Positions 50,001-63,309 of a stretch of DNA of 64,000 bases are shown one piece after another. The stretch's first letter is position 1. Every line of letters begins with the position of its first letter. The notes beneath the pieces were generated by a model. It searched no databases. It saw only the letters and a program-made list of their open reading frames with translations, and was not told where the DNA came from. Source of the DNA: Anadara kagoshimensis. Lineage: Eukaryota; Mollusca; Bivalvia; Arcoida; Arcidae. The stretch is taken from the NCBI GenBank assembly GCA_021292105.1, contig CM037870.1, forward strand, positions 43,232,576-43,296,575, written 5' to 3'. The translations under genes and the position numbers were made by a program.

Positions 50001-53000
50001 TTAGGATACAATTCTACTAGCCTTTATAAGCAGGTGACCCTTATATAGAGGTGACCTTTAAGGCGGGTTGGACTGTAATTGATATAATTAGTGAGTAAAT
50101 GTGACTGATTGAAACTACAAATGTGTTTATTCAAATGTAAATTATTGTAACAGCTTTAATCCATATTATAATATCATATCATGCTCTCTACTTCAGAATA
50201 GGACGGAAAGTTAAAATAAAGAAATTAGATACCATTTCATACCCTGGTTAAAAATGTCTTGCCAAAATGAGTTCTTAAGTTTTACGAATAACAATTTTTT
50301 CTTTTTTTTCGCTGATATAAATAATGAATAAAAGAGGCTGTTCGAAACTAGAGAACCCATTTCCATAGTGAAATATATAATACAGCACATTTAAGCTGAA
50401 ATATACTAAACTAACATATACATCTATCGTTTAAATCATACCATACTGTCGATTACTAATGAATATTAATCAAAACTCAAAGAGAAACATAGAGAAAAAA
50501 TATTATAGATCATGGATTATCAAGAAAAGGAATTTGTTATTCAATCAAGTCAATGGAGAGACTCGTGTATAACAATAACATCATTTGGCTTGCTAATGGG
50601 GAGGTTTGTCAAACCTTGCCATTGGCTTGCAAAGAACATTGGGCTCACGTCTCCCAATCCAAAAGAAAGGACCATAGGGGAATCAATATATCATCAACTT
50701 ACGTGTATTGTGTGCATTATTAGTTGAATGTTGGTGGTGATGATGGTCTATAATAATAATAATAATTATAATAATAAATAATAATAATAATAATAATAAT
50801 TATAAATAATAATAATAATTTCGATTAACAATGTTTAATCATGTCTTTTCTTGCACCTAATTATGAAGACATTTTTGAAGAATGTGGGTTTACAGAAAAA
50901 TGTCAATGAACCACATGTTGTACAACAATTCTGTTGTTTCGATGATTTGAAATGTAAAGGATATTTCAAACATACAGAAATGATATCTCTTTAATCAGAG
51001 TCAATCTGATGATGTTAAGATAGTTACATGCTTCGGTATTTCGTAGCCCCTCTACACAAGTGAATATCAAGGAACAGAGAAAAACATTAGATGACATCAG
51101 CTTGTCATCTTAAAAAACATTGTGAAAGTACATTATGTAGAAATGCCGAAAAATCAATGACTTGCACAGTAGGTTGTCCATAACATATTCTTTTAATTAA
51201 CATCATATTACCAGTCATAAGAAATTGAAACGATTTGACACATACAGTTTATTGACATATATGTAGAACAATTGGACAAAAGAACTGTTTATTTGATCAA
51301 GGATTTATAAAACTACAAATTAACATCGGATGTTCGGAACTAAATAGACTTTAAACATTTCAGCTAAAATAAACATCTTATACATGTCATATCGAAATCA
51401 TCATGCCAGAGCTTTTTATTCATAATACATTTTAATCAATATATCAACACATAAAATGAAAGAGTGCCATGGTGAAACAACATCATTATTTAGAAATATT
51501 ACAAACTTACGTATTAAATGTGCTTTAATAGTTGTTGAATGTGGGCGATGATGCGCTAAAATAAAAGTTTTTAAAAGTTTTTTGAAAGGCAGCAATAATG
51601 AGAGATTAATGTTCTTATCTTGTTTAACAATATCATGATATCTTGTGGGTTTTCTAGAATTATTAATGTCGATAAAACAAATCAGCACTGAAGTGATTTG
51701 ACGCGTGAGGAGTCATTCTATACTGGAGATTATTGGATTTTTGATTTTCTTCATAAGAAAGCAAAGGAAGTCAAAATAGTGTTCAGCAGCTTGACATAGT
51801 TTTATGACCGTTGTGTAAATAATGTACACATATACATGTAATTAAATGGCAATTTATTATTTTTCTATTGTTTCATTTTACCCCAATGTCAAAAGTTAAA
51901 TTCATATATATTCATTAGAGAGGTATTTACTAGGTTAAATGAATAGTTAATCGACAAGTCAAAGACAACCAATTAACAAGTCTGCGATACGTTGATCCGA
52001 TGATTGAAGTTTCAGAGACTGATTGTAATAATACGTTGTTTCAGTCATGTTAGAATTGGAATAAACAACACTTAGCCGTACGTATCCTCTCATAATGCAA
52101 GGAACATCGTGCACATGAGTCAAAATATTTCATTAAGTGAGTTCGCCACCGTAAATATTGCTTTTTACGTTACTTTTATTTGAAATTGTAAGATCCTAAT
52201 CAAGGAAAGAAACACGTGTATCGGACTTGTTTGCTGTGGTATTTTTAATTTTTATGATATATTTCAGGTATGCATTTTTTATTTACAGGGTTATTTTAAT
52301 ATAAACATATAAATATAAATCAAAACACAAGGAGAAGCATAGAGAAAACAATAAAATTATAAAACATTATAACATTACTTGTATTGTGTTGTCTAACTGT
52401 AGTTGGATTTGGCCAATGATTGGCTAAAATATACAAGATAATAGTATAAATATGATTTTGATGCAATCTTCGTTTATATCTTGTGATATATTTGTGGCCA
52501 AGAAAATTATTAAACGCTAACTAATAAAACAAAAAGTCAATTGCTTACACAAAAGCAAACACATTGTTATTTATGCTTAAAGGTGGTCAATTTTTTCCTA
52601 AACTGTACTTCAGAAGATAAAGATACTAATCTATATTATAACATCATGCCATGTTATCTACTTCAGATTTCAACGGAAAGTTTAAAGAAGAAATTGAATA
52701 TATTTCCATACCCTGGTTAAAAGATTTCTTGTCAAAATGAGTCCTTAAGTTTTACGAATAACAATTTTTGTTCAGTTTTTTTCGCTGATACAATAATGAA
52801 CAAAAGTGGCTGTTCGAAACTAGAGACAATATTTCCATTGTGTAACACGTAATGCAGCACATTAAGGCTAAGATATATATCTATCGATAAAATTATACCA
52901 TACTTAAGGTTACCAATGAATACCAATCAAAACACAAAGAGAAACATAGAAAAAATTATTGTAAACCCTAAATTATCCAAAAAAGGAATTTGTCAATGCA

Positions 53001-53180
53001 CTAAGTCAATAAATAGACTCATGTATAACAACAATAGCATATCATATTTGACTTGCTAAGAGGACGGTTTGTCAAGCCTTGCGTTAGGCTCACGTCTCCC
53101 GAACCATAGAGAAATAAATATATCACCAACTTACGTGTATTGTGTGCAGTATGAGTTGAATGTTGGTGGTGATGATGGTC

Positions 53181-53225
<45 letters not shown>

Positions 53226-55800
53226 TGTACTTAACAATCTTTAATTATGTTTTCCTGCATTTATTTACGAAGACAGTTTGAAGAACGTTGGTTTACAGAA
53301 AAATGTCAATGAACCACACCTTGTACAACAATTCTTTTGTTTGGAGATTTGACATGCAAAAAATATAGCAAACATACAAAGATAACTTGTGTTACACCTG
53401 GCTTACGCATGCTTCTCTTTAATAAGATTCAATCTGATAATTTTAAAATAGTTACATGCTTCTGTACTTCAGAAAACATCTACACAAGTACAAGTCAAGA
53501 AACAGAGAAAAACATCACATTACATCAGCTTGTCATCTTTAAATTATTGTGAATGTACATTATGTAGAGATGCCGAAAAATCAATGGCTTGCACAGTAGG
53601 TTGTCCACAACATATTCATTTAATTGACATCACAGTACTTTATCTTAAGAAATTGGAGAGAAGACATTTTGACGATTTGACACTTACAGTTTAATAACAT
53701 GTATATAGAACAATTGGACAAAAGAACTGTTTATTTGATCAAGGATTTTCAATATTTTCAATCTTGATTTATAAATCTACAAATTAACATCGGATGTTCA
53801 CAACTAAATACAGTCAACCTGTTTATAAATGCTACCCAAGGGAACCAATAAAAGTGGCCTCTATGGGCAGTTGGACTTTATATACAGGTTCAAATGATAT
53901 GAATAAAGAACAAGTTGAATACAATTCTTCTGGCCTTTATACGCAGGATGCCCTTATGTAGAGGTTGGACTAAACACTTTAAACACTTCAGCTAAAATAT
54001 ACGTCTAATACACGTCATATCGAACTTGTTATGGCATACCAAAGCTTCTTTTCCGTGAAACATTTAAATCGATACATCAACACACAAAGAGTACCATGGT
54101 CAAAACAATATCATTATTCAGAAATATTATAAACTTACGTATAAAATGTGCTTTAATAGTTGTTGAATGTGGGCGATGTTGCGCTAAAATAAATAGATTT
54201 TTATAAAACATCGATGAAAGAATTAGTATTCATATCTTGTTTAAAAAAATCATGAAATCCTGGGGTTTTCTAGAAATGTTTATAAAACAAATCACCACTG
54301 AAGTGATTTGACGCGTGAGGAGTCATTCTATACTGAAGATTATTGGATGCATTTTGATTTTCTTCATAAGAAAGCAAAGAAAGTCAAAATAATGTTCAGC
54401 AGCTTGACATAGTTTTATGACCGTTGTGTAAATCATGTACACATATACATGTAATTAAATGACAATTCATTATTTTTCTATTGTTTCATTTTACCCCAAT
54501 GTCAAAAGTTTAATTCATATATATTCATTAGAGAGGTATTTACTAGGTTAAATGAATAGTTAATCGATAAGTGAAAGACAACCAATTAACAAGTCTGCGA
54601 TACGTTGATCCCATGAAAAAAGTTTCAGAGACTGATTGTAATAATACATTGTTTCAGTCATGTTGAAATTGGAATAAACAACACTTAGCCGTACGTATCT
54701 TCTCATAATGCAAGGCACATCGTGCGCATGAGTCAAAATAACTCATTAAGTGAGTTCGCCACCGTAAATATTGCTTTTTACGTTACTTTTATTTGGAATT
54801 GTAAGATCCTAATCAAGGAAAGAAACACGTGTATCGGACTTGTTTGCTGTGGTATTTTTAATTTTTATGATATATTTCAGGTATGCATTTTTCATTTACA
54901 GGGTTATTTTAATATAAACATATAAATATAAATCAAAACACAAGGAGATGCATAGAGAAAACAATAAAATTATAAAAAATTATAACATTACTTGTATTGT
55001 GTTGTCTAACTGTAGTTGGATTTGGCCAATGATTGGCTAAAATATACAAGATAAAAGTATAAATATGATTTTGATGCAATCTTATATCTTGTGATATATT
55101 TGTGGCCAAGAAAATTATTAAACGCTAACTAATAAAACAAAAAGTCAATAGCTTACACAAAAGCGAACACATTGTTATCTATGCTTAAAGGTGGTCAAGT
55201 TTTTCCTAAACTGTACTTCAGAAGATAAAGATACTAATCTATATTATAACATCATGTCATGTTATCTACTTCAGATTTCAACGGAAAGTTTAAAGAAGGA
55301 AGTCAATATATTTCCATACCCTCGTTAAAAGATTTCTTGTCAAAATGAGTCCTTAAGTTTTACGAATAACAATTTTTGTTCAGTCTTTTCGCTGATAAAA
55401 TAATGAACACAAGTGGCTGTTCGAAACTAGAGACACTATTTCCATTGTGTAACAAGTAATGCAGCACATTAAGGCTAAGATATATATCTATCGATTAAAT
55501 TATACCATACTTAAGGTTACTAATGAATATCAATCAAAACATAATGAGAAACATAAAGAAAAATTATTGTAAACCTTAAATTATCCAAAAACGGATTTTG
55601 TCAATGCACTAAGTCAATAAATAGACTCATGTATAACAACAATATCATATCATTTGACTTGCAAAGAGGACGGTTTGTCAAGCCTTGCGTTAGGCTCACG
55701 TCCCCCAAACCAAAAGAAAAGGACCATAGAGAAATAAATATATCATCAACTTACGTGTATTGTGTGCAGTATGAGTTGAATGTTGGTGGTGATGATGGTC

Positions 55801-55842
<42 letters not shown>

Positions 55843-58800
55843 TGTACTTAACAATCTTTAATTATGTCTTTTCCTGCACTTATTTACGAAGACAGTTTGA
55901 AAAACGTGGGTTTACAGAAAAATGTCAATGAACCACACCTTGTACAACAATTCTTTTGTTTCGGAGATTTGACATGTAAAAAATATAGCAAACATACAAA
56001 GAAAACTTGTGTCACACCTAGCGTACGCATGCTTCCCTTTTATAAGATTCAACTGATAATTTTAAAATAGTTACATGCTTCCGTACTTCAGAAAACATCT
56101 ACACAAGTACGAGTCAAGAAACAGAGAAAAACATCACATAACATCAGCTTGTCATCTTTAAAAACATTGTGTATGTACATTATGTAGAGATGCCGAAAAA
56201 TCAATGGCTTGCACAGTAGGTTGTCCACAACATATTCATTTAATTGACATCACAGTGCTTTATCTTAAGATATTGGAGAAAAGACTTTTTGACGATTTGA
56301 CACATACAGTTTAATAACATGTATATAGAACAATTTGACAAAAGAACTGTTTATTTAATCAAGGATTTTCAATATTTTCAATCTTGATTTATAAAACTAC
56401 AAATTAACATCGGATATTCCGAACTAAATACAGTCAACCTGTATATAGAGGCCACCCACAGGAACCAGTAAAAGTGGCCTCTATGGGCAGGTGGACTTTA
56501 TATACAGGTTCAAATAATATGAATTAAGAAGAAGCACGTGTATCCGACTCGTTTACTATGGTTCTTTTGATTTTAATGATAGATTTCATTGACGTATTTT
56601 TCAAATTCAGGGGTATTAATACCTAAAATATCACCAATGTTTCAATATAAACACGTAAATATAAATCACAACACATGGAGAAACAAAGAGAAAACAAAAA
56701 CATTATAAACATTTATAAAATTACTTGTATTATGTGCTCTAGCTGTAGTTGGATTTGGCCAATGATTGGCTAAAATAAAAAAAAGATAATAATATAAATA
56801 TGATTTTGATGCAATCTTTGTTTATGTCTTGTGATATACTTGTCGCCAAGAAAATTATTAAACGCGACTTAATAAAACAAAAAAGTCCGCAGTTTACACA
56901 ATAGATGTACTTCAGAAGATAAAGAGAAGAAAGGACACTGAATATGTATGTTTTATCCTTATATCGAGTCAAATTTTTATGAATTTGACATAGATGTTCA
57001 TGTTTTTATAGAAATGAAATTGATTTTTCTTTTTACTATGGAAGTGTGGAAGAATTGGAAATTTTTCAAATTGTCAAATTCTTTTATACTTTCATAACAG
57101 AATGAAAATTTAATTTTTTTTCTTATAATTCAATTCATAGAAATTTTCCAACAACTAATCAACAATTTAAACTACAATATATCCGAAGTAAGGAGCTTAT
57201 GCTATGGCGTAATAATTCAAATAAGATGACGCCACAGGGATCCAATCCATTGATGCAAGCATAAAGGAAAAGAACTGACGAATCAAAATGATTGAAAGAA
57301 AGAAAAATTGAATTATATTAATAAACCTAGTGTTTTAATTCGCTGTTAAATTACAAGAGTTGTCTCCCTTTTCAATGTAAAGTATTGTGATGTATTATAA
57401 ACTTACGTGTATTGTGTGCATTATTGCTTGTTAAATGGTAGTGATGGTGTGCTATAATAAAAGTAATAATGTTAATAAAGCAATAACAAAACAATCTTCA
57501 TTTATGTCTTGTGTTTTTAATCAATCGTGAAAACAGCGTGTACAATTTAGGTTAACAGATAAAGACAAAAACTAAATCACACATGCCAAATTACATATTA
57601 TACCAGTTTTATTTTACTTTTTTGATCAATTGGTATACAAAAAGTAAATTATCTCGGGTCAAACCAACACATTGTTGTAGTCAGCTGAGTTGTATCTAGA
57701 TAATTTTAAAGCATTTACAATAATAATCCAGTACAAAGATGGTAGTCAAGGGAAAGAGAAAACCTTCACCTACAGTGCATAGTGTACATATTATGTTATG
57801 TATAACAAACAATATCTCCTACATTGCACATTAATGCACAAGAAAAGTTCGTCAAAATGACATCCCTATAACTTTTTTCTAGCCAGTAATAAATTAATTT
57901 AGTTATGTAGCTACAATTGTGTTTCCTTTCTTAACGAAAATAAAGTTTGCATGGATGATGAATGGGTCATTACAAAAAAATCAATGCAAATCACGGGACT
58001 AAATTAAAATCCTTTGTTGAGATGTAAACACTGTAAATTACATAAGAAAGCTTGATAAAACAATAAGGGACATCAATGGCAAATATAAAGCAGTCAAAAT
58101 TTCTAATTTATTAGCTTGTAATTTTTCAAACAGTAGCTTTGAATGTTAAAATTTCCTGTATTAAGACTTTACAGATCATACATCTGTCAAAAACAACATT
58201 TCAGAATGAGAGGACGAAAACTTAATTTAAAGAAATTAGAAAAAACCGGCAAAAAAGCCCACCCCAAACAATGTTCGGAAAACAAATTAGAGAAGGAATA
58301 GCGATTAGGAATACAATTCATTGAGTAAGTAAGAATGGTAGTTCTAGACTATAGGTATTTTTTCAATTTCAATATAAGGTATTATAACGCATTCCAGATA
58401 TATATCTAATGCATGAAATGCATGAAATAGTTATACTTATACAAAAAAGAAACATAATGATAAGATAACCGTTATGTAAAATAGTATAAACTTACAAATG
58501 ATGTGCGTTTTCATAGTTGAATGTGGGCGATGGTAGGCTGAAATTAAAGTAATATAAATAAAGCTATGATAAGAAATATCTTCATTCAGGTCCTGTATTA
58601 CAGAACATCAAAGACTTCTAGGCTGTCAAGAAAAGACAAGGAAGCAAAGTGTTTTGTGATGATAATGTTTAATGATACTTATAATGTGATGTTGTAATGT
58701 AAACTAACTAAAACATGCAAATGTATGAATAAATTATGTAAATGTGCGGCTGAATTATTGTATCACTCTATTTGACGTTCGTTTCATTCGTATAATTATT

Positions 58801-61800
58801 CATTTTTTCTTCACTCGTTTAAATGAACAGTTTATCGACAAGTCACAAAGAACCAATTTACAAATTTAACATTTATTTTTTTTTTTGCGGAAAGAATTTT
58901 AGTAAACTAAAATAAATACGTTGTTTTAAGTATGTAATAAGTGAAATAAACAGCATTTTGCAGTATTTTATAACTGAATCCTTACGGCGTGGTTATAATA
59001 TGTGTCAAAGCTGTTTCAGGTTAACTAAATATTGTGTGTAAAGAGTTAAATAATTAGATAGAGAGAAAAATACATGTTGATTGCTAGTAATAATGTTTTA
59101 AATAATCTTAAGGTAAATTAGATATACAAAACATTAGACTCATGGAGATAACAATAACATTATAAACATTTATAAAATTAATTGTTTTGTATGCTTTAAC
59201 TGTAGTTGGATTTGGTTGATAATTGGCTGAAATAACAAACATTCTAATCCATATTCGAACCATAATCCAGAAGCAAAGTAAAGCAGTTTGGAACTGACAA
59301 GTCAGATTAAACACTTAAACTTCCACCAAGGAAGTGAGGTCGGGTGTTCCGGAAGGTCTATCCTTACAAGACCATTCGACTAGCATTTCATGTCCACATG
59401 TTTTATATTATTTATTTTTATGAAGAAAACCTTCTTAAACTCAGGCATGCTATAAGAACCTTGTGACTGATAGTGCTCAACGAAGTTTAATGCGATTTAG
59501 TATGTGTGTTTGCAATGCAAATTTAAACTAAAATTAAAGCTGCTCTAATATTTGATTCGTGGTGCTTTTTGAATATTCTAATTGGTTATGGTTTATTCAA
59601 ATGGCAGCTTTAAATAGTAGTTGGTTGTCATTCGCAAAATGTATGAAATATTTTGAACTGTTCGGAAGTACTCTTGTTTCTCACTCATAAAACTGGTTGA
59701 TGTAATCAAAAACACACATACTAATCCATGCCCGAATCACAATCCAGAAGCAAAGTGAAAACTTTGAAACTGACAAGCCTGGTTAGACACGTAAACTTCC
59801 ACCAGGGAAGTGAGACCGGGTGCTCCGAAAGGGTAAGCATCCCCTGTTTAGCTAGCTACATCCGCCACGTGTGTAATCAAAATTGTGTGAAAGGAACATG
59901 GAACTATGGGACTTCAAATATATCCAAAACATACATAAACTTTTCAACAATACTGTGATGATGGCCATAAAACTTTTTTAGGGCCTTGTAACTAATTTGT
60001 TTTTATTTCATGAAAGTATTCTGTCTAATTCATCTAATACATATTAAATCAATACATATCAATTAACACAAGAAGAAAAACAGTATCCTTAAAATACAAT
60101 GAACGTACGTGTTATAAGTGGTCTTGTCGTTGTTGAGTGTGGGTGATGATGGGCTAAAATAAAAGAAATCTTGATTAATTAGTAATGAAAATCTTCATTG
60201 AAGTATTGTTTATAATGAGATGATGTATGTTTAACTATTTAATGACGATATTGTTATTTTATGATTCTACAATTTCATTTGCCATTTTATGTAACTTGGT
60301 ATTTGCATTATAACAAACAATGATTTTTCAAGGAGAAATATTATGGTAACGTAATGTAATCATAAATAAACAAGCATACTAACCCATGTCAAAATTAAAA
60401 TCCAGAGGTAAAAACTTTAAGATTGACAAATTAGGTTTAATTCGCGAACTTCCACCATGGAAGTTAGACCGGGTGCTCCGGAAGGTTAAGGAACCTGTGT
60501 TAGTTAACTTCATCCGCCATGTGTGTAATCAAAATTGAAAGTGAAAAAAATGAAATAATTGAACGTTATATAATCCAGGTCAAAGTCTTTGTTTGCAGAA
60601 TCCCTGTGTCAACAATTTATTTGTAAGCTGCTTGCTTCGTTGTATGAAGTTTCCGTAATAGGAACAAGCTCTACTATAGCGTATGAATTATGAAATAAAT
60701 ACACCATAAGCAGGAGAAGCAGTATGGAAAAGGAAAGGTGACAATAGAAAAATTGAAGTCATGACGTTTGTTATACAACTTTAAATGTAGCCTTTTGTGT
60801 GCGTCATAATTGCGATACAAGTCTAAATATGAGGCAGTAATGAAATAAGTTGATTAGACTTGTTAAAATTGCAAGGATAAACATCGATGTTTTGTAAAAG
60901 TCCAATAATGCAGTACACGTGCTACAGAAAAATTCATTGGAGGAGTTCACTATCTTGTGATATAATAGTAATCTACTATGATATATGATTCACAGCGGTA
61001 ACTCAGTTGGTAGAGTGCTCGCTCCGGAAGTGGGAGGTCGTGCGTTTGAGCCCGACCGGGTCTGACCCATGACTTTAAAGTGGGTAGTAAATGTTCTTTC
61101 GCAAAGCACTCGGTATTACTAAATGAAAGTAACGGTTCTTAAAGGTTTCGGATGGGAACTTAAAATAAACTAGGTCCCGTGTCACGCTAGGCTTGGCACA
61201 CGTACGATAAAGGAACCTGCTGTATAATGTCTATAGCACAATGTACATGCAAAATTTCTGAACCTTCGCCAGGCGACGTCTCTGAAATGTTCTTGACTGG
61301 GACGTTAAACACCATTACTCAACTCAACTCAACTCACTACTATGATATATGTCTTTAGCCATAGATACTGGACTAACAACAGCAAAAACAACAATGACAA
61401 AAAATATAAATCTTAAATATAGCACAAAAAGAGAAACATAATTATGAAACCATTATTTACAATATATGTAAACGTACGTGTATTGTGTGGTTTAATAGTT
61501 GTTGAATGTGGCTGGTGATGATGGACTGAAATAGAAAAGTGATGGAACACATGCAAAATTTCTGTACCTTCGTCAGGCGACGTCTCGATATAAATGAAAT
61601 GTTCTTGACTGGGACGTTAAACACCATTACTCAACTCAACTCACTACTATGATATATGTCTTTAGCCATAGATACTGGACTAACAACAGCAAAAACAACA
61701 ATTATGACAAAAAATATAAATTTTAAATATAGCACAAAAAGAGAAACATAATTATGAAACCATTATTCACAATATATGTAAACGTACGTGTATTGTGTGG

Positions 61801-63309
61801 TTTAACAGTTGTTGAATGTGGGTGGTGATGATGGACTAAAATAGAAAAGTAAGCTTTATTCATGTCTTCACTTAAACGTAATAAGTTAATTAATACTAGA
61901 CAGATGTGAATCAAAGCTATCATTTAAGTGATGTGACGTGCAAAATCGGCGGTGATTGACAATTACATTCTTTTGCTCTACGGAGGTGAATGGGTACTGT
62001 TTACTATCCCTTCTGCATATTATAACAGTGTTCAAAAATGTACCTCGAATATATTCCAGGTTCATTCCAAGATGGACTATGAAGCAACATGCAGTCTATT
62101 ATTCATTAAGTCACCTATATGAAAGGCCAAATCAAATTACCAGCAAGCCTTTCTATTATCAATAGCCCAAACTTGTGTTTCTTTTTCCTTGTCCATTTCT
62201 CTGATAAAAGTTTATTGTCCCGTTTGCTGTTAATTACATTCGTATATTGCATACTAAAATTTGAATTTCAAACATTGAAAAATATTTGTGTTTTTCTCAT
62301 AAGTTGATTGATATGATATTAAAATTTATGTTCGTTACTTCCAAATCGATATGTTTGAGCCACAGAATTAGTCTAAAGCCGATGTACTTACTTTGTGTTG
62401 TTGACGTGTTAATTTGGTGATGATGAACATGCATGTGAACGTGCACATGCATATGACCTACAACAATACAAAGACGATATTCAACTTTTGATGAAAATCC
62501 TAACATTAACATTTGTCTAAAACAGCAGGTGGAAGATATGAATTCAAAGCCTAATTTCATTGTTTCATCCTTCTATTTGTATTCACATATCTCTACAAGA
62601 TTTGGTGATTAATGGAAGGTAAGACAAGACGCCATTTATATATTTTATGTTCGAGGAACATATAATACCTTGAACAATTCGATTGAAAAGTTGTAATATG
62701 TGTTTTTTGTAAAATATTGACAGTAAAATAGGAGGTAAAGTTAGGGCCTTCAAATTACAACCCTTTTAATATATATCTTGTTACCATTCCAAGCCTGGGG
62801 ATTTTATCTACAGTGCTCTAAATGTGTTTATAGTTTGTGTTCTCGGTTTCATTGTGAAACAGAGTAAAACGATATATAAATAGCACTAATATGGCCAAGA
62901 AATATGTCTTAAATAATTCTAGTCATAGTTACAAATTCTTGTTATAGTTTCAGTGTCCATCAAAAGAGTTTTATAATCAGAGTATGTCATAAATTGATTC
63001 TACTTAAATAGTTTTTGTCTTGCAACAATTTATCATCATATGATGTTCAAAAACCATTTTAGATCTGTATTTGTCATTTTATTTCGCTTAAACTGCTTCA
63101 CTATGAGCGTTTAATAACTTGAAGTAAAGAACATTTTGTATCGTCATTCTAATCATACTGAAAGATTTGATATTTGTTGTTACACGGTTTTCAGAATCTT
63201 TCCTTTCTCTATCATTTTAACAAAGTTATTGTTTCCCAGATTGCTTGCTTACTTCTGCGTTTGTGAGCATCATAATTAGTGCGATTTGCGGTTGATTTGT
63301 TTATATTTG
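3619..63309 (-). CDS. Obscurin/UNC-89-like giant muscle scaffold gene (partial, 31 exons recognised)
   Basis: Overview entry; exons are listed separately. Reading right to left, the spliced product carries His-rich micro-repeats, a Thr/Gln-rich repeat, Ig1, a giant acidic disordered segment, Ig2, Ig3, an acidic linker, SH3, DH and the start of PH. Every junction was checked: GT donor, AG acceptor and matching phase. Known biology: obscurin/UNC-89 proteins sit at the sarcomere M-band, bind titin-like partners and activate Rho-family GTPases through DH-PH. The SH3 with a WLVR segment and a VPSA ending, followed directly by DH-PH, fits this family better than Trio/Kalirin, where the order is DH-PH then SH3. 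The 5' end lies right of the window. The rest of PH, and probably more Ig and kinase domains, lies to the left. Membership of the micro-exon part rests on strand, phase and proximity, not on transcripts. Confidence 0.8.
4440..4575 (+). mobile_element. Degenerate tRNA-derived SINE head
   Basis: GGCTCATTTGGTAGAGAGTT resembles a Pol III A box and GGGTTTGAATACC a B box, spaced as in a tRNA. The acceptor stem does not pair and the sequence is diverged. Confidence 0.45.
4885..5280 (-). repeat. Decayed tandem copies of the DH exon 3' end
   Basis: Three imperfect ~140-bp units begin near 4890, 5035 and 5184. Each resembles the real exon end at 5328-5420 (ATGTCTTATAACTGGACCCA ... CTGTCCAGTAACATTAGGTT) plus the start of its intron. 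Two copies have lost the donor GT (CATTAAGT and CATGAAAG in place of CAT|GTAAGT). They are not coding. Confidence 0.7.
5328..5492 (-). CDS. DH domain C-terminal helix and DH-PH linker
   Basis: 165 nt, phase 0-0; acceptor CGTTTCAG, donor ACAT|GTAAGT. It reads SLIKYTALAGGDCTQLISAV, then the long last DH helix with LTDLCREVENLM, ending DLGPVIRH, where PH begins. Decayed copies of its 3' end lie downstream in the intron (see repeat entry 4885-5280). Confidence 0.88.
6090..6185 (-). CDS. DH domain, conserved region 3
   Basis: 96 nt, phase 0-0; acceptor CTGTTTTTCCAG, donor CTCAAG|GTAGGG. It contains DLLNRPVDRIHEYIELLK, equivalent to the signature LxxPVQRIxxYxxLLK, which is the most diagnostic DH motif. 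The Gln of PVQR is Asp here; obscurin has Glu, so exchange activity cannot be judged from this alone. Confidence 0.9.
6355..6578 (+). repeat. Interspersed repeat V, copy 1
   Basis: Contains ATCAATGTTGATGCTTTGCA, GACAAGAATTTCGGAC and a final TTCGAAAGGCGGGGGATAAT. The same order recurs at 12425-12632. Probably a non-autonomous retroelement or SINE body. Confidence 0.6.
7205..7400 (-). mobile_element. Partial family W element
   Basis: GTTGTAGCTAGCTAAACAGG, CCTTCCAGAGCACCAGGGC and TTTTGCTTTTGGAATTGTGA match the reverse-oriented arm of family W (complete copies at 21.3, 28.0 and 43.9 kb). Confidence 0.6.
7595..7687 (-). CDS. DH domain, conserved region 2
   Basis: 93 nt, phase 0-0; acceptor TTTATTTTACAG, donor CTTCAG|GTATGC. 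KDKFVKYIPLCAGKDKVDNF is the FxxYxxYxxxxxxA-type helix of DH domains. It ends SEEVRQFLQ. Confidence 0.87.
7805..7990 (+). mobile_element. 3' part of a SINE (family A)
   Basis: GACCCTGTGTTGTGGTAGGT through CTTGACTGAGACATAAGACC matches the tail seen in the complete copies at 31757 and 60990. The tRNA-like head is missing. Confidence 0.55.
8218..8287 (-). CDS. DH domain, short internal exon
   Basis: 70 nt, phase 2 to phase 0; acceptor TATCTTTACAG, donor GAAAAA|GTAGGT. It codes ELLPELIASTENPAKVANLF, then LEK. It lines up with the obscurin stretch between FHxxFLxEL and VAxxFI. Confidence 0.85.
8890..9126 (+). mobile_element. SINE-like element with tRNA-like head
   Basis: GGCTGAGTGGTCTAAAGCAC is an A-box-like start (Leu/Ser tRNA style). 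The element ends GTCTTGACTGTGGCATAAAA, the same tail theme as family A. Similar to 41685-41890. Confidence 0.55.
9156..9323 (-). CDS. DH (RhoGEF) domain, conserved region 1
   Basis: 168 nt, phase 2-2; acceptor ACATTTCAG, donor AAAA|GTAAGA. HSIADLVESETDYICDMKDL matches the DH opening pattern ELvxTExxYvxdL. It continues with KDIYKNLTDLYSFHKK, the segment in which obscurin carries an IFxNVxDIxxFH pattern. This helix contacts the Rho GTPase switch regions. Confidence 0.88.
9793..10025 (+). mobile_element. SINE family B copy, head truncated
   Basis: It shares with 46349-46733 the sequences CGTACTGTCTCAGTGAGCTA, ACTTCACATGCATACACAAA and GCTGATGTGATGTTAAGCAA. Only a short piece of the tRNA-like head (GGTGGTCTAATGG) remains. 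Confidence 0.65.
10026..10268 (+). pseudogene. Decayed 3' end of a LINE retrotransposon ORF
   Basis: Conceptual translation on the plus strand gives GWIGHTIRKPANNITRQALK, followed after stops and frame slips by a segment ending like RARWRDFVNGLSSTGS. This is the usual C-terminal pattern of LINE reverse-transcriptase proteins (WIGHxLRxxxxxxxxQALxW ... DRxRWRxxVxGLCS). It carries stops and is inactive. It lies inside an intron, directly downstream of the SINE B copy, which may share its tail. Confidence 0.6.
10296..10399 (-). CDS. SH3 end and DH domain start
   Basis: 104 nt, phase 0 to phase 2; acceptor CTTGATTACAG, donor AAAAG|GTATAT. ICYVPSALLQP is the last SH3 strand (compare G-x-VPSxYL). 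The charged segment EGDEFDDIGINGRQKIAEE then leads into the first DH helix. Confidence 0.87.
11379..11525 (-). CDS. SH3 domain, first exon
   Basis: 147 nt, phase 0-0; acceptor GTACATGCAG, donor AGG|GTATGA. Residues YLVAANYEDTNNDVSLQQGE correspond to the ALYDY strand and RT loop. QQGEIIELLDK is the conserved diverging turn. YWLVRDLKERQR carries the conserved Trp. The WLVR wording is typical of UNC-89/obscurin SH3 domains. Confidence 0.88.
12074..12147 (-). CDS. Acidic linker exon between Ig3 and SH3
   Basis: 74 nt, phase 1 to phase 0; acceptor TTGTATTGTAG, donor TTAT|GTATGT. It codes EKKENDDDGQTPTCPFVQ and then LEVSESY. It is a short charged linker leading directly to the SH3 domain. Confidence 0.78.
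12228..12424 (+). mobile_element. SINE family A copy (tRNA-derived)
   Basis: The head CGGTAGCTCAGTGGTAGAGT (A box) and TGTTCGAACCCC (B box) are in tRNA spacing, followed by AAGCACTCAGCATTTAGTAA and TCAAGGCAGGCATGGCATG. The acceptor stem ends do not pair, so it is not a tRNA gene. Confidence 0.7.
12425..12632 (+). repeat. Interspersed repeat V, copy 2
   Basis: Same element as 6355-6578; here it is attached to the 3' side of the SINE A copy. Ends TTCGAGAGTCGGGTGATAAT. Confidence 0.6.
13228..13425 (-). CDS. Second half of Ig domain 3
   Basis: 198 nt, phase 1-1; acceptor ATTGTTTTAG, donor TTGAAG|GTAACA. It contains PQPVVEWLKDDKP (core Trp kept) and LSDGGEYTCRAKNELG (F-strand Cys kept), ending FTVDVE. 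This is a standard I-set second half as found in obscurin, titin and related muscle proteins. Confidence 0.9.
14119..14216 (-). CDS. First half of Ig domain 3
   Basis: 98 nt, phase 2 at the start and phase 1 at the end; acceptor TTTTTAAAG, donor ACAG|GTAAAG. It reads REAIVERPPEFFVAPSK and ends EPAVIQAKVTG. The B-strand Cys is replaced by Ala. The intron falls at VTG|xPxP, exactly as in Ig2, which suggests the two domains arose by duplication with the intron in place. Confidence 0.85.
15637..15865 (-). CDS. Second half of Ig domain 2
   Basis: 229 nt, phase 1 at the start and phase 2 at the end; acceptor TTTAAAAG|GT (weak tract), donor GAAAG|GTAGGC. It continues ...WEVTG into FPEPKVNIYKD and ends with DTGYYIIHVSNDAGSD, a clear F-G hairpin. 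The B-strand Cys is Trp, the C-strand Trp is Ile, and the F-strand Cys is Ile, so the usual disulfide and core Trp are absent. The fold is still recognisable from spacing and from the DTGYY motif. Confidence 0.82.
16155..16198. repeat. (CT)n microsatellite just after the giant exon
   Basis: 44 bp of CT; on the transcript it is GA repeat, 50-93 bases downstream of the 16248 donor. Purine-rich tracts near donors can bind splicing factors; any effect is inference. Confidence 0.9.
16248..21229 (-). CDS. Giant acidic disordered exon plus first half of Ig2, with a frame break
   Basis: Acceptor CTATTGCAG|GTGC and donor AACCG|GTAGGT. The exon is 4982 nt, about 1660 codons. It is rich in Asp, Glu, Ser, Thr and Asn and has almost no hydrophobic runs, as expected for an intrinsically disordered linker. 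Repeats include six 18-residue units of the TSSKTSDQ type near 20.43-20.74 kb and weaker copies of SDKRSDNS-like blocks. The last residues (PPRILNATSDVTVHEGE) open Ig2. The first frame stops at 17520-17522, after a run of six A (T on the plus strand, 17527-17532). A second frame takes over and is open to the donor. The total length is one base short of keeping phase 1-1. See the finding for the two explanations. Confidence 0.85.
20430..20740 (-). repeat. 54-bp tandem repeat inside the giant exon
   Basis: Nearly identical 54-bp units code FDTNVTTSSKTSDQHEPD with His/Leu and Pro/Ser variants, six copies in a row. More diverged copies of the TSSKTSDQ core continue towards 19.7 kb. The repeat is in frame and adds a Ser/Thr/Asp-rich spacer. 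Confidence 0.92.
21266..22078. mobile_element. Family W element, two-ended (~810 bp)
   Basis: The left arm near 21268-21400 contains CACAATCCAAAAACAAAGTA and AGGGAAGTGAGGCCGGGTGC. The right arm near 21958-22076 is its reverse complement (AGCACCCGATCTCACTTTCC ... GCTTCTGGATTGTGATTGGG). No ORF of note, so a non-autonomous DNA element is likely. Confidence 0.65.
22870..23030. repeat. (AAAT)n microsatellite
   Basis: About 160 bp of AAAT/TAAA repeat with interruptions, upstream of the synthetase gene. Confidence 0.9.
23031..24279. other. Upstream region of the synthetase gene
   Basis: No repeat or exon recognised. TATA-like AT-rich stretches are present (TATAAAATT near 24085), but the base composition makes them uninformative. 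The promoter of the nested gene is presumably here. Confidence 0.3.
24280..25941 (+). CDS. Acyl-CoA synthetase, AMP-forming superfamily (ACSF2/4CL-like), intronless
   Basis: 553 codons, uninterrupted, near full length for the family. The start has a favourable context (A at -3, G at +4). Motifs in order: the phosphate-binding loop TTSGSSGTPKAVLHSH (about residues 206-221), YGCTEIG (about 348), GWLKTGDMG (about 427), the hinge KGRKSDVIHYGIRN, and a C-terminal TATGKVIRK with the expected catalytic Lys. Known role: ATP-dependent activation of a carboxylic acid to an acyl-adenylate, then the CoA thioester. The substrate cannot be read from sequence. No signal peptide or membrane segment is evident. 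The gene sits in the opposite orientation inside a ~10-kb intron of the obscurin-like gene. The lack of introns suggests origin as a retrocopy. The reading frame is intact, so it is probably functional. The hinge carries KSD where many relatives have K-D. Confidence 0.93.
   Translation: MAARSYVHTPHKGEYLYQTIPDRIKYFAEKTPNKEVFVFLSPGKQRTAITCAELYEKSLKFARGLVHIGTRRNDIVAIIIPNSVEWVICTFGCLLAGATPLHALFLKSDGEDVVSLLKSVGNCVTLILDPREDMRNLKIAKNFIDELKSDGTVVSKLLPTLKHVIFTRDLNNDALTLEKVIQSAGSVENIELPKIDPDDGAAILTTSGSSGTPKAVLHSHFGLILGGVHMSEGCDIGEDDVYFNDRTFSWIGGYPGVFLAKGNTIVTFEECNLTDFTEITNFFVKVIEQEKCTIALIIPPVMMELMKSPPKCQTFPLKGALVGGMPVPEAYTGVLGSIAKSLTNIYGCTEIGLASSFRVQQKSDFTESYIAGTPGTGREIKIVDETGSIVPQNTLGEIWIRGPGLFIEYKNSDSEIKTSTGWLKTGDMGLINDNGLLLCKGRKSDVIHYGIRNVFPVPMEAALRKCRGVQDVVIVPIPDEMLYNQLCACIVKESGSNLTVTEVRKYFEDQLAIDYLWGDTPGYFLFFENFPRTATGKVIRKEVEKMARTLLAF
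26271..26484. mobile_element. MITE family X copy 1
   Basis: Terminal inverted repeats: left TATAGACAAACAACATTATT then GACCTGTCCGCTTGA; right GTCAAGCGGACAGGTCAATG then TTGTTTGCCTATA. 214 bp with no ORF. Confidence 0.85.
26842..26847 (+). promoter_or_regulatory. Possible polyadenylation signal downstream of the synthetase
   Basis: An AATAAA hexamer lies about 0.9 kb after the stop. A MITE copy (26271-26484) lies between, so the real 3' end may be closer and use a variant signal. Weak evidence. Confidence 0.2.
27103..27290. mobile_element. MITE family X copy 2
   Basis: Left TATAGGCCAACAATTTTGAC, right AAGCGGACAGGTCAATGTTG then TTTGCCTATA. The internal sequence differs from copy 1. Confidence 0.8.
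27460..27682. mobile_element. MITE family X copy 3
   Basis: Left TATAGGCAAACAACATTGAC is well preserved; the right arm is diverged (AAAGGTCAAAGGGACAGGTT). The interior matches copy 4 at 41.4 kb (GACGAAATATACACGCG). Confidence 0.75.
27966..28797. mobile_element. Family W element, two-ended (~830 bp)
   Basis: The left arm runs CAAACATACTAATCCATATC ... GAAGTGAGGCCGGGTGCTCC. The right arm is its reverse complement near 28700-28795 (AGCACCCGGTCCCACTTCCC ... GGTATGCTTTG). Interior includes CACGTGCGTAATCAAAATTA and GGACACAGAGACATCAAACT. Confidence 0.65.
29245..29600 (+). mobile_element. Partial family W element
   Basis: AATCCAGTTCACAATCCAAA, AAGTGAGGCTTGAGGGTGCT and two copies of the ACCACGTG-type 'CCACCACGTGTGTTAAATC / CATCACGTGTAAATAATC' segment suggest a nested or duplicated W half. 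Confidence 0.5.
31040..31200 (+). mobile_element. Partial family W element next to the Ig1 donor
   Basis: GAAGTGAGACCTGGTGCTCA, GGTAAGCACCTCCTGTTAGG and CCGCCACGTGTGTAATCAAA; it ends about 35 bp from the Ig1 exon donor. Confidence 0.6.
31234..31500 (-). CDS. Ig domain 1 (I-set) exon
   Basis: The 267-nt exon is phase 1-1, with donor AGAG|GTAGGT. I set the acceptor at ATGCAAAG|AC. The better-looking upstream AACAG would put an in-frame TGA into the exon, whereas this choice continues PPFTRRVQ as DNMPEKTRISV. The hallmarks are all present: Cys in FECQVIG, Trp in IQWFKDG, and the DQGCYQCRA F-strand with its Cys. It is the only one of the three Ig domains in the window with a complete Cys-Trp-Cys set. 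The following intron is about 10 kb and contains the acyl-CoA synthetase gene. Confidence 0.88.
31757..32095 (+). mobile_element. SINE family A, full-length copy
   Basis: The head has A box GCGGTAGCTCAGTTGATAGA and B box GGTTCGATTCCCGG. The body has AAGCATTCGGCATTACGAAA and CGGTGTCAAGGAATGCGTGG. The tail has CTAGGACGTTAAACACTATT and a short ACTCA repeat. Confidence 0.8.
33026..33189. mobile_element. MITE family Y copy
   Basis: Opens ACAGTCCAACGTGCCTTAAA and closes TATAGACAGGTTTGACTGT, with the shared interior TTATTTGAACCTGTATATAAAGG (shortened here). Confidence 0.8.
34459..39657. mobile_element. Large pearl-like / Helentron-like element with satellite core
   Basis: The left boundary region reads AAGAGGCCCATGGGCCTGAT then ACGCTCACCTGATAAC. 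The right boundary ends CACATGACCTTCGGTCAGGT then GAGCTAAAAA. Short subterminal inverted repeats (GCTCACCTGA near 34487 and TCAGGTGAGC near 39644), a small hairpin (TGACC-TTC-GGTCA) close to the end and a CTAA terminus recall non-autonomous Helitron/Helentron elements and the oyster 'pearl' elements, which also carry tandem-repeat cores. Autonomy is ruled out: there is no long ORF. Class assignment is inference. Confidence 0.6.
34660..39115. repeat. ~146-bp satellite array, about 31 copies
   Basis: Each unit contains CATCTGTGACCTTGACCTTT, CATGACCTTTTTCTATACAT, GTATCAATACCTACAACATT and AGATAATTAACCATTT. A marked variant unit with AAAATACATGCAAAT occurs near 35759, 36775, 37772 and 38643, showing higher-order blocks of about seven, seven and six units. 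Confidence 0.95.
40069..40249. mobile_element. MITE family Y copy
   Basis: Opens AAGTCCAACCTGTCTTAAAG, closes ATAGACAGGTTTGACTGT, with interior GGCCACCTGCTTATTAAGGC. Confidence 0.8.
40795..40925. repeat. AT-only low-complexity tract
   Basis: About 130 bp of almost pure T/A (TTTTATTTTATTTTATTATT type). Confidence 0.85.
41381..41628. mobile_element. MITE family X copy 4
   Basis: Left TACAGGCATACAACATTGAA; right AAGGTCAAGCGGACAAGTCA then ATGTTGTTTGCCTATA. Interior GACGAAATATACACGCGTAA is shared with copy 3. Confidence 0.82.
41685..41890 (+). mobile_element. SINE-like element
   Basis: Head GTGACCCAGTGGTCTAAAGC, B-box-like CTGTTCGAAATACACTC, tail TCTTGACTGGGACATAAAAC. Same type as 8890-9126. 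A direct match of the tail to family A suggests shared LINE machinery. Confidence 0.5.
42597..42868. mobile_element. MITE family Z, complete copy
   Basis: Nearly perfect ~50-bp inverted arms: left TGGCCCCGGTTTCACAATCA then TTCCTTAGCTAAGATTTTCC; right the reverse complement, ending GTGAAACCGGGGCCAGG. 272 bp, no ORF. A degenerate relative sits at about 44025-44285, inside a W element. Confidence 0.88.
43905..44622. mobile_element. Family W element, two-ended (~715 bp)
   Basis: Left arm CAAAAACAAACATAACAATC ... AGGGAAGTGAGGCAGGGTGC. The right arm, reverse complement, is near 44455-44620 (GGAGCACCTGGCTTCATTTT ... TTAGTATGTTTGTTTTTG). A degenerate Z-like stretch (44025-44285) lies within. Confidence 0.68.
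44985..45300 (-). mobile_element. Two adjacent partial family W arms
   Basis: GGCGGGTGTAGCTAGTTAAA ... CCGGAGCATCTGGCCTCACT and, 150 bp on, GGCGGGTGTAGCTAGCTAAA ... CCGGAGCACCCGATCTCACT. Same orientation, separated by the arm end TGTTTGTTTGTATT. Confidence 0.6.
46349..46733 (+). mobile_element. SINE family B, full-length copy
   Basis: The tRNA-like head GGCCGCGGTGGCCTAATGGA has a B box GAGTTCGAGTGCCGC. The body has CGTACTGACTCTGTGAGCTG and CACTTCACATGCATACACAA. The tail has GCTGATGCGACGTTAAGCAA, an (AACC)n run and poly-A. It inserted just downstream of the 46754 donor. Confidence 0.82.
46754..46816 (-). CDS. Linker exon and first strand of Ig1 (63 nt)
   Basis: Acceptor GTTTCTCTTTCAG and donor AAG|GTAAGT, phase 1-1. 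Interior residues HVSKNVKLTFTFPPFTRRVQ. The PPFTRRV stretch is a typical A-strand opening of an I-set Ig domain, which the 31.5-kb exon completes in frame. This exon therefore ties the repeat region to the Ig part of the gene. Confidence 0.8.
47280..47918 (-). CDS. Thr/Gln/Ala-rich repeat exon (639 nt)
   Basis: Acceptor ATCTGTTTCAG and strong donor AAAAG|GTAAGT, phase 1 at both ends. It starts AIPITVNPLHNRMTTHR, then holds an 11-residue (33-bp) repeat, typically TILQHVPTAQS or TIAQHAPTAQN. The copies grow degenerate towards the 3' end and become Lys/Thr/Gln-rich (TTTKQAPTAKR). The segment is low-complexity, Thr-rich and probably disordered or mucin-like. The mirror strand is also open through the repeat, but that is a by-product of the 33-bp period. 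The His/Thr/Pro composition recalls the micro-exons; whether it derives from them is unknown. Confidence 0.75.
49437..49600. mobile_element. 164-bp near-perfect hairpin (foldback MITE)
   Basis: The left arm opens CAAAACCACACAAAAGTGGT then TTTCTGACGTAGCTTGATCG; the right arm closes CGATCAGCTACGTCAGAAAA then CCACATATGTGTGGTTTTG. The arms meet at GTGCGCAGAGCGCAC. The outer ends contain their own smaller inverted repeats. Confidence 0.8.
49905..50076. mobile_element. MITE family Y copy
   Basis: Interior GTGGCCTTTATGGGCATGTG and end AAGGCGGGTTGGACTGTAA; same architecture as the other Y copies. Confidence 0.78.
50703..50747 (-). CDS. Micro-exon 15, alpha type (45 nt), last of the array
   Basis: Donor GTAAGT; acceptor TTATTATAG from an interrupted TAA/TTA repeat; phase 1-1. 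Interior residues HHHHQHSTNNAHNT. Its final C joins the CT of the 47.9-kb exon to give CCT (Pro), so the frame runs on into the Thr/Gln repeat. Confidence 0.82.
50748..50822. repeat. (TAA)n repeat forming the acceptor tract of alpha exon 15
   Basis: TAATAATAAT with ATT interruptions. On the transcript it is TTA/TAT repeat ending in the TATAG acceptor. Confidence 0.85.
51511..51555 (-). CDS. Micro-exon 14, beta type (45 nt)
   Basis: Acceptor TTTATTTTAG and donor GTAAGT, phase 1-1. Interior residues HHRPHSTTIKAHLI. Confidence 0.82.
52379..52423 (-). CDS. Micro-exon 13, gamma type (45 nt)
   Basis: Acceptor TATATTTTAG and donor GTAATG, phase 1-1. Interior residues NHWPNPTTVRQHNT, identical to micro-exon 10. 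Confidence 0.8.
53135..53179 (-). CDS. Micro-exon 12, alpha type (45 nt)
   Basis: Donor GTAAGT; acceptor inside a TAA/TTA microsatellite; phase 1-1. Interior residues HHHHQHSTHTAHNT, the same peptide as micro-exon 9, as expected for recent 2.6-kb duplicates. Confidence 0.85.
53181..53225. repeat. (TAA)n repeat forming the acceptor tract of alpha exon 12
   Basis: 45 bp, uninterrupted, directly abutting the acceptor AG. Confidence 0.9.
53810..53970. mobile_element. MITE family Y copy in duplication unit 2
   Basis: CAGTCAACCTGTTTATAAAT ... TATGTAGAGGTTGGAC, flanked by TA on both sides. Unit 1 has the unoccupied site near 51340 (ACTAAATAGACTTTAAAC). Confidence 0.85.
54139..54183 (-). CDS. Micro-exon 11, beta type (45 nt)
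   Basis: Acceptor TTTATTTTAG and donor GTAAGT, phase 1-1. Interior residues QHRPHSTTIKAHFI. It differs from the beta exon at 51.5 kb by Gln for His and Phe for Leu. Confidence 0.82.
54992..55036 (-). CDS. Micro-exon 10, gamma type (45 nt)
   Basis: Acceptor TATATTTTAG and donor GTAATG, phase 1-1. Interior residues NHWPNPTTVRQHNT, identical to the gamma exon at 52.4 kb. The flanking introns also match that copy almost base for base. Confidence 0.8.
55755..55799 (-). CDS. Micro-exon 9, alpha type (45 nt)
   Basis: Donor GTAAGT; the acceptor TTATTATAG is built from a TAA/TTA trinucleotide repeat. Phase 1-1. Interior residues HHHHQHSTHTAHNT, seven His of 14. The peptide is identical to the alpha exon at 53.1 kb. 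Confidence 0.85.
55801..55845. repeat. (TAA)n repeat forming the acceptor tract of alpha exon 9
   Basis: About 44 bp, uninterrupted, same position as in the other alpha units. Confidence 0.9.
56430..56526. mobile_element. Truncated MITE family Y copy at a deletion junction, unit 3
   Basis: It starts like the unit-2 copy (CAGTCAACCTGTATATAGAG) but breaks off after CAAATAATATGAATTAAG. It then joins sequence equivalent to about 54.82 kb of unit 2 (CACGTGTATCCGACTCG). The beta exon region is deleted. Confidence 0.8.
56725..56769 (-). CDS. Micro-exon 8, gamma type (45 nt)
   Basis: Acceptor TTTATTTTAG and donor GTAATT (weaker than GTAAGT), phase 1-1. Interior residues NHWPNPTTARAHNT. The gamma type is poorer in His and carries Trp and the motif PNPTT. 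Confidence 0.75.
57407..57451 (-). CDS. Micro-exon 7, alpha type (45 nt)
   Basis: Acceptor TTTTATTATAG and donor GTAAGT, phase 1-1. Interior residues HHHYHLTSNNAHNT. The NNAHNT ending is shared with the alpha exon at 50.7 kb, so this is the diverged alpha member of the oldest unit. Confidence 0.78.
58496..58537 (-). CDS. Micro-exon 6, beta type (42 nt)
   Basis: Acceptor TTAATTTCAG and donor GTAAGT, phase 1-1. Interior residues YHRPHSTMKTHII. It shares HRPHST with the beta exons at 54.2 and 51.5 kb but is one codon shorter. It ends in T, so the joined codon with the next exon is TCA. Confidence 0.78.
59182..59229 (-). pseudogene. Decayed gamma-type micro-exon (donor lost)
   Basis: The acceptor TTATTTCAG is intact and the body reads NYQPNPTTVKAYKT in phase 1. 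At the expected donor the intact siblings have ACAA|GTAATTTT, while this copy has ACAATTAATTTT, so the GT is gone. No good replacement donor follows. A partial W element starts a few bases away on the acceptor side. It occupies the gamma position of the oldest alpha-beta-gamma unit. Confidence 0.6.
59236..59365 (+). mobile_element. Partial family W element
   Basis: AACAAACATTCTAATCCATA ... AGGAAGTGAGGTCGGGTGTT; it starts directly beside the decayed gamma exon. Confidence 0.6.
59703..59995 (+). mobile_element. Partial family W element
   Basis: AATCACAATCCAGAAGCAAA, GGGAAGTGAGACCGGGTGCT, CCGCCACGTGTGTAATCAAA and ACTGTGATGATGGCCATAAA, matching the left half and interior of the 27966 copy. Confidence 0.65.
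60109..60153 (-). CDS. Micro-exon 5, His-rich cassette (45 nt)
   Basis: Acceptor TTTTATTTTAG and donor GTACGT, phase 1-1. Interior residues HHHPHSTTTRPLIT, matching the family core HxPHSTT. It lies between two partial W repeats. Confidence 0.78.
60365..60600 (+). mobile_element. Partial family W element
   Basis: AACAAGCATACTAACCCATG, GTTAGACCGGGTGCTCCGGA and CATCCGCCATGTGTGTAATC. Diverged left half. Confidence 0.58.
60990..61340 (+). mobile_element. SINE family A, full-length copy
   Basis: A box GCGGTAACTCAGTTGGTAGA and B box CGTTTGAGCCCGACC. Body AAGCACTCGGTATTACTAAA. Tail GACTGGGACGTTAAACACCA then (ACTCA)n. Its last ~95 bp are included in the duplication that also carries micro-exons 3 and 4. 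Confidence 0.82.
61478..61525 (-). CDS. Micro-exon 4, His-rich cassette (48 nt)
   Basis: Acceptor TCTATTTCAG and donor GTACGT, phase 1-1. Interior residues HHHQPHSTTIKPHNT. It differs from micro-exon 3 by His to Gln and Val to Ile, which supports a recent tandem duplication. Confidence 0.8.
61788..61835 (-). CDS. Micro-exon 3, His-rich cassette (48 nt)
   Basis: Acceptor TCTATTTTAG and donor GTACGT, phase 1-1. Interior residues HHHHPHSTTVKPHNT. It is nearly identical to micro-exon 4, about 310 bp away, and both lie in a recent direct duplication. Confidence 0.8.
62392..62457 (-). CDS. Micro-exon 2, alternating His exon (66 nt)
   Basis: Acceptor TTGTTGTAG and donor GTAAGT, phase 1 at both ends. 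Interior residues begin HMHVHVHMHVHHHQ and end INTSTTQ. Nine of the first 13 residues are His, alternating with Met or Val. This is the longest micro-exon. The pattern suggests internal expansion of a CATGTG-like hexamer. Metal binding is plausible for such a motif but is inference. Confidence 0.75.
63253..63309 (-). CDS. Micro-exon 1 of the array (Asn/Lys-rich, 57 nt)
   Basis: Acceptor TTTTAATTTCAG and donor GTAAGC enclose 57 nt, phase 1 at both ends. The interior codons read NINKSTANRTNYDAHKRR. It has little histidine and may be an older, divergent member of the array or the exon leading into it. It is the most 5' exon I can recognise; more may lie right of the window. Confidence 0.6.

Follow-up and report, generated by a model that had tools for sequence, protein, structure and literature searches.

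The PEVK region of titin is encoded by an array of short, symmetric phase-1 exons, which specify a disordered stretch of protein. Another gene design built on short exons is found in the micro-exon genes (MEGs) of schistosomes. According to PMC4671649, PMC5825161 and PMC10526429, these genes have a 5' exon encoding a signal peptide and short symmetric middle exons separated by long introns; the symmetry of the micro-exons allows splicing without loss of the reading frame. The products are described in the same three sources as small secreted proteins with Thr/Ser/Pro-rich, disordered and O-glycosylated stretches. Some MEG families have a conserved C-terminus, and C-terminal motifs have been proposed to organise a mucus-like net (PMC4671649, PMC5825161 and PMC10526429). 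Among molluscs, His-rich byssal proteins such as mussel foot protein 4 and the flanks of precollagen are reported to bind copper or other metals in the byssus (PMC5435178). No micro-exon gene of the type described below was found for a mollusc in searches of the openly licensed (CC0, CC BY or CC BY-SA) PMC literature.

The window is a 64-kb stretch of the Anadara kagoshimensis genome (C14:43232576-43296575). The minus strand was read at 40-64 kb of the window, and a further 100 kb past its right end was fetched; positions are those of the window, continued past the right edge. The window together with these 100 kb is called block A, and C14:42560001-42660000 is called block B. A collinear second copy of block A 8747-118504 lies approximately 685 kb away at C14:42560781-42660000 and is 80-98% identical by segment; it may have arisen by genuine segmental duplication, or it may be a haplotype left unmerged.

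Between 50703 and 63309 the minus strand carries fifteen intervals of 42-66 nt. All fifteen have an AG acceptor and a GT donor and are in phase 1 at both ends, as the earlier note reported; each is open, and its length is divisible by three (15/15). Their reading frame continues into a Thr/Gln exon (47280-47918), again in agreement with that note. The further claim that the intervals encode variants of HHxPHSTTxxAHNT applies to most of the array: thirteen of 15 are HHxPHSTT-like or NHWPNPTT-like, whereas the two 5'-most differ. These are micro-exon 1 (63253-63309, 57 nt, phase 1-1), which encodes NINKSTANRTNYDAHKRR and is intact in block B, and micro-exon 2 (62392-62457, 66 nt), which encodes HMHVHVHMHVHHHQINTSTTQ. 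Chance occurrence was assessed with a filter covering length (42-66 nt), phase (1-1), an open frame, composition, pyrimidine tract and donor. This filter recovers 13 of the 15 micro-exons in the array region, missing those at 63253 and 58496, and passes nothing on the plus strand of the same region. Over 125 kb elsewhere in the locus it passes one interval on the minus strand and none on the plus strand; in 200 first-order Markov simulations the mean was 0.025 and the maximum 1. The micro-exon pattern is far above chance. Many of the cassette splice sites are weak when judged by a simple score.

The remaining micro-exons, all on the minus strand, belong to three cassette types: H, N (NHWPNPTT) and R (HRPHSTTIKAH). 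The H-type cassettes are micro-exons 3 (61788-61835) and 4 (61478-61525), both of 48 nt, and micro-exons 5 (60109-60153), 7 (57407-57451), 9 (55755-55799), 12 (53135-53179) and 15 (50703-50747), each of 45 nt. Micro-exon 4 is a local duplicate of micro-exon 3 and has no counterpart in block B. Micro-exon 9 encodes HHHHQHSTHTAHNT, and a (TTA)n tract abuts its acceptor; in three H-type cassettes (TTA)n microsatellites directly form the acceptor (50748-50820, 53180-53225 and 55800-55845), replacing the ordinary pyrimidine tract. N-type cassettes are micro-exons 8 (56725-56769), which encodes NHWPNPTTARAHNT, 10 (54992-55036) and 13 (52379-52423), all of 45 nt. R-type cassettes are micro-exons 6 (58496-58537, 42 nt), which is without a counterpart in block B, 11 (54139-54183) and 14 (51511-51555), the latter two of 45 nt. 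The order N-R-H is repeated along the array except that one R is missing and one N is dead. The triplet is carried on tandem duplications of approximately 2.6 kb, the two youngest units being 92% identical, and the array has grown by tandem duplication of this three-cassette unit. Because all internal exons are symmetric and in phase 1, the frame can survive the gain, loss or skipping of cassettes. The dead N-type cassette, a sixteenth (59182-59226, minus strand), has lost its donor GT in block A and its acceptor AG in block B; single cassettes can thus be dropped with the frame unbroken.

The 5' end of the gene lies to the right of the window. Exon 1 (65480-65689, minus strand; C14:43298055-43298264), about 1.5 kb outside, encodes MFFLAICLSLSSLGITIVTGYDCICIMEAGTYMKIENTLYTVKELPIGECYQWLPDPAILPTIRIKHDLQ and ends in phase 0. 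Exon 2 (64332-64401, minus strand), also outside the window, continues exon 1 and contributes a fourth cysteine; its end is in phase 1, which is the phase required by micro-exon 1. A hydrophobic N-terminus, judged by eye to be a signal-like peptide, is encoded by exon 1 in all four copies of the gene, that is, in the window gene and a tandem paralogue in each of the two blocks. At the 3' side, the Thr/Gln exon (minus strand, phase 1-1) consists of AQHVPTAQSTI repeats and is 639 nt long in the window and 279 nt in block B. It is followed by a conserved C-terminal exon (46754-46816, minus strand, 63 nt, phase 1-1) encoding HVSKNVKLTFTFPPFTRRVQ, which is identical between blocks A and B at 63 of 63 nt in both the window gene and the paralogue. 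Downstream of this exon is TTTTCAG/GC TAG (slash, acceptor), so that the coding part of the terminal exon (45551-45555, minus strand) specifies glycine and then a stop at 45551-45553, with the 3'UTR beyond. The acceptor scores for the terminal exons are 1.9 and 4.2. On the minus strand, the 8-mer CAGGCTAG has two occurrences in block A (164 kb) and two in block B (100 kb), and these four coincide with the four gene ends. Exon 1, exon 2, the C-terminal exon and the CAG/GC TAG end are thus each present in 4/4 copies.

When its 19 coding exons and the terminal stop are spliced together, the window gene is predicted to encode 565 aa, with a single stop at the end. The order is signal-like peptide, small cysteine domain, fifteen cassettes, Thr/Gln exon, conserved C-terminal exon and stop. 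Histidine makes up 15% and threonine 19% of the product, acidic residues are nearly absent, and the cassette stretch is 28% His. On this evidence the array is probably the central part of a self-contained gene whose product is secreted, His/Thr-rich and mucin-like.

The block B copy of the array gene encodes 415 aa and has 13 cassettes. The tandem paralogue is located upstream, at 66-85 kb of block A; it encodes 329 aa on the same plan, and its symmetric exons, picked by hand, comprise four that are His-rich and four that are Thr-rich. Its 5' exons are at 84281-84490 and 83273-83342, and the domain they encode is 58% identical to that of the window gene. Its 3' end encodes GHVTGNVKVTFTFPTFPQKIV and is followed by CAG/GC TAG at 68917-68924. 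The paralogue also has decayed extra cassettes, and in block B one of its Thr exons is without its GT donor. The exon order, the phases, the full frames in four copies, the stop and the gain and loss of cassettes between copies are all established at the level of these predicted genes.

Several other elements occur at the locus. Upstream of both putative secreted genes, on the minus strand of block A, there are guanylate-cyclase exons (PF00211, E 1.6e-17) and an exon encoding a NIT domain (PF08376, E 3.6e-8), at 95041-97502 and 127191-127721. Block A also contains a long minisatellite (132760-141122), within which an open frame repeats (VTYIPVWRHRVEYNDDIVP), and open frames at 87210-88142 and 104257-105159 which we take to be transposase-like and reverse-transcriptase-like. 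A tandem satellite of approximately 145 bp occupies 34553-39660 of the window; it is absent from the collinear place in block B and present elsewhere in that block. An intronless acyl-CoA synthetase-type gene (24277-25941, plus strand; AMP-binding, E 4e-58) is nested in the neighbouring minus-strand gene, with Ig-type exons of the latter, on the other strand, to either side.

That neighbour is the source of a competing assignment. The earlier note placed the array in obscurin/UNC-89, as an extensible His-rich region spliced to the Ig exon at 31.5 kb. The two lie on the same strand, the array exons are in phase 1 and the Ig exon, which matches the I-set family (Pfam, E 5.5e-21), is downstream. 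However, a terminal exon with a stop is common to 4/4 copies of the array gene, and an exon for a signal-like peptide stands at its 5' end. The Ig exon has one good acceptor, at 31520 (score 6.0). Entered from a phase-1 exon ending in G, this acceptor gives GTT ATC TGA (V-I-stop) in both blocks; the sole phase-compatible AG, at 31488, scores -6.6. A simple in-frame join of array and Ig exon is refuted by the stop reached from the good acceptor, the array gene's own terminal stop and the phase; with the exon for the signal-like peptide also taken into account, membership of the array in obscurin/UNC-89 is very improbable. Another in-frame TGA follows the acceptor in block A, ahead of the Ig exon's ATG. 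The codon in block B is TTA, so the TGA is not decisive alone and the ATG is not proven as a start. As for the domains listed downstream of the array, the Ig domain was borne out, but the RhoGEF-like composite pieces in the window have no Pfam match, the PH-like piece reaches E 0.087 and SH3 was not found in the searches made; the identity of the neighbour is thereby neither confirmed nor denied beyond its Ig domains. A Pfam scan of the 565-aa product found no Ig domains. The array gene appears to be separate, with its predicted end falling before the neighbouring muscle-type gene begins.

Even in a separate gene, the 5' and 3' exons could encode the real secreted protein while most cassettes are relics of duplication that seldom or never enter the transcript. 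Such an account would explain the weak cassette splice scores, the unequal number of cassettes in the two copies and the cassette which is dead in both through different mutations. It is also in keeping with the substitution pattern. Over 13 cassette pairs from blocks A and B dN is 0.061 and dS 0.052; without the first cassette (12 pairs) dN is 0.044 and dS 0.009, and in neither case does dN/dS differ significantly from 1. Strong constraint is found in the Ig exon (dN 0, dS 0.193) and in the acyl-CoA synthetase (dN 0.005, dS 0.064). A dN/dS near 1 would also fit non-functional exons. Relics are nevertheless a rather improbable explanation in view of what is preserved: the frame, both splice sites and the length are kept in 13/13 pairs, all intact in block B as well (61478 and 58496 are unpaired), despite an intron divergence of 7.5% (665 mismatches in 8829 aligned positions, 92.5% identity) and 106 indel events per 9797 aligned bases of the array region, or approximately 10.8 per kb. 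The 12 scored pairs differ at 22 of 564 nt; at the surrounding rate about six indels would be expected in these 564 nt, and all lengths are equal. The paralogue, too, carries His/Thr cassettes of the same phase. With dN/dS near 1 and the ends kept, the frame and splice sites look retained and the cassette sequence looks either free or diversifying. The second possibility, that the gene is real and its cassettes are under diversifying selection in an immune, reproductive or anti-microbial role instead of a mechanical or metal-binding one, draws on the 18 replacement changes and one silent change in the 12 pairs (P ~0.04 against random substitution) and on the first cassette, where 17 of 57 nt differ, a rate some three times that of its flanks, and where the frame and splice sites are preserved. 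Set against this, the departure of dN/dS from 1 is not significant (Fisher 0.14), a single pair of copies is compared and relaxed constraint explains the data equally. Diversifying selection is unlikely, if less so than relics. The favoured reading is still a self-contained gene with interchangeable cassettes. Judged from its DNA, this is a predicted lineage-restricted family of secreted micro-exon genes; the feature is real and its earlier assignment was wrong.

Few relatives of the N-terminal domain were found. It has no Pfam or NCBIfam match and no convincing match in the PDB, where one chance match was obtained (E 0.33); a first profile matched nothing in the PDB and a second gave three hits at chance level (E 0.6-1). 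An SH3b-like fold was considered and dropped, being without support in Pfam. A full-length protein search for homologues of residues 1-95 returned 29 candidates, none of them at E<=1. With a profile of exons 1 and 2, two of six candidates matched, both of them exon-1 reading frames, 91% and 54% identical, which run into the intron. The protein database searched does include comparable animal DNA, since it contains a 96% match to the nested synthetase; the absence of homologues from it is nevertheless weak evidence. Within the same genome (36 contigs, 1.115 Gb) exon-1-like sequences comprise four near copies and three distant places, two on C14 at 24.4 Mb and 25.7 Mb (30% identity) and one on C17 (37%). 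C-x-C, G-x-Y and L-x-x-G-x-C-Y are common to these sequences. No obscurin was seen within 3-10 kb of surroundings of the distant places, and the splice filter revealed no clear cassette array in the 10 kb downstream of the paralogue at C14:25.67 Mb. Several kilobases downstream of this distant exon-1 paralogue, at C14:25.66 Mb (L038 1421-1633), there is an open frame rich in Thr and Pro, which may be a related gene.

Exon 1 would supply a signal-like peptide and most of the small cysteine domain, and exon 2 the remainder. The fifteen interchangeable phase-1 cassettes would form a disordered His/Thr stalk, the Thr/Gln exon a stretch which is likely O-glycosylated, and the two last exons a short conserved C-terminus with the stop. 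The product presumably enters the secretory path; its stalk would connect a small N-terminal domain, presumably folded, with a C-terminus that is conserved and beta-like. Alternative splicing of the cassettes is also envisaged. It is suggested, tentatively, that the product is an extracellular gel or adhesive in which the extent of cross-linking depends on His protonation or on the binding of Zn or Cu. Somewhat more doubtful is the wider proposal of a micro-exon family outside the flatworms: a tandem, fast-evolving secreted pair whose frame-neutral His/Thr cassettes are spliced into many metal- or pH-switchable gel isoforms, convergent with the schistosome MEGs.

Such genes are easily overlooked: most of the coding sequence is divided among 42-66-nt exons scattered across 20 kb, and this array was nearly credited to the adjacent muscle-type gene. 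If the cassettes are splice-selected, one locus could yield a graded series of His-rich secreted polymers, a natural experiment on how gelling that responds to metal or pH depends on the number of repeats and on their His content. The micro-exon design, known chiefly from the secretions of schistosomes, would then also prove to have arisen elsewhere. The evolution of the array can be read directly from the collinear second copy, with its other cassette number and independent losses.

Like the titin PEVK region, the array consists of short symmetric phase-1 exons encoding a disordered stretch. Unlike it, the product is apparently secreted, has another chemistry and carries no sarcomere domains in its reading frame. 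The Thr-rich repeat exon with its PTAQST units is mucin-like; the 565-aa product contains no recognised mucin domain in Pfam, the Mucin-like family scoring 11.7 bits (E 0.34) against a cut-off of 28.7. In contrast to secreted mucins, the product has no VWD, cystine-knot or other polymerisation domain, and histidine replaces much of the mucin Ser and Pro. For metal binding, the suggested parallel is the His-rich byssal protein, as described in PMC5435178. Both are His-rich and repetitive, and the array product, like the byssal proteins, is probably secreted. We know of no cassette exon array in His-rich byssal proteins. The schistosome MEGs differ in that their micro-exons are dissimilar and mostly shorter than 36 bp (range to 81 bp), whereas the cassettes here are near-identical and 42-66 nt long. 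The array gene is also very His-rich, and the word histidine did not turn up in PMC4671649, PMC5825161 and PMC10526429 when these were searched. The middle of the array gene is made mostly of short symmetric exons (15/15 in phase 1-1), as in MEGs, though longer than is typical. Symmetric cassettes, a Thr-rich middle and a conserved C-terminus are likewise shared with MEGs, as secretion would be. By its layout, and with no claim of membership, the array gene would seem to work like the schistosome MEGs, to which its design is nearest.
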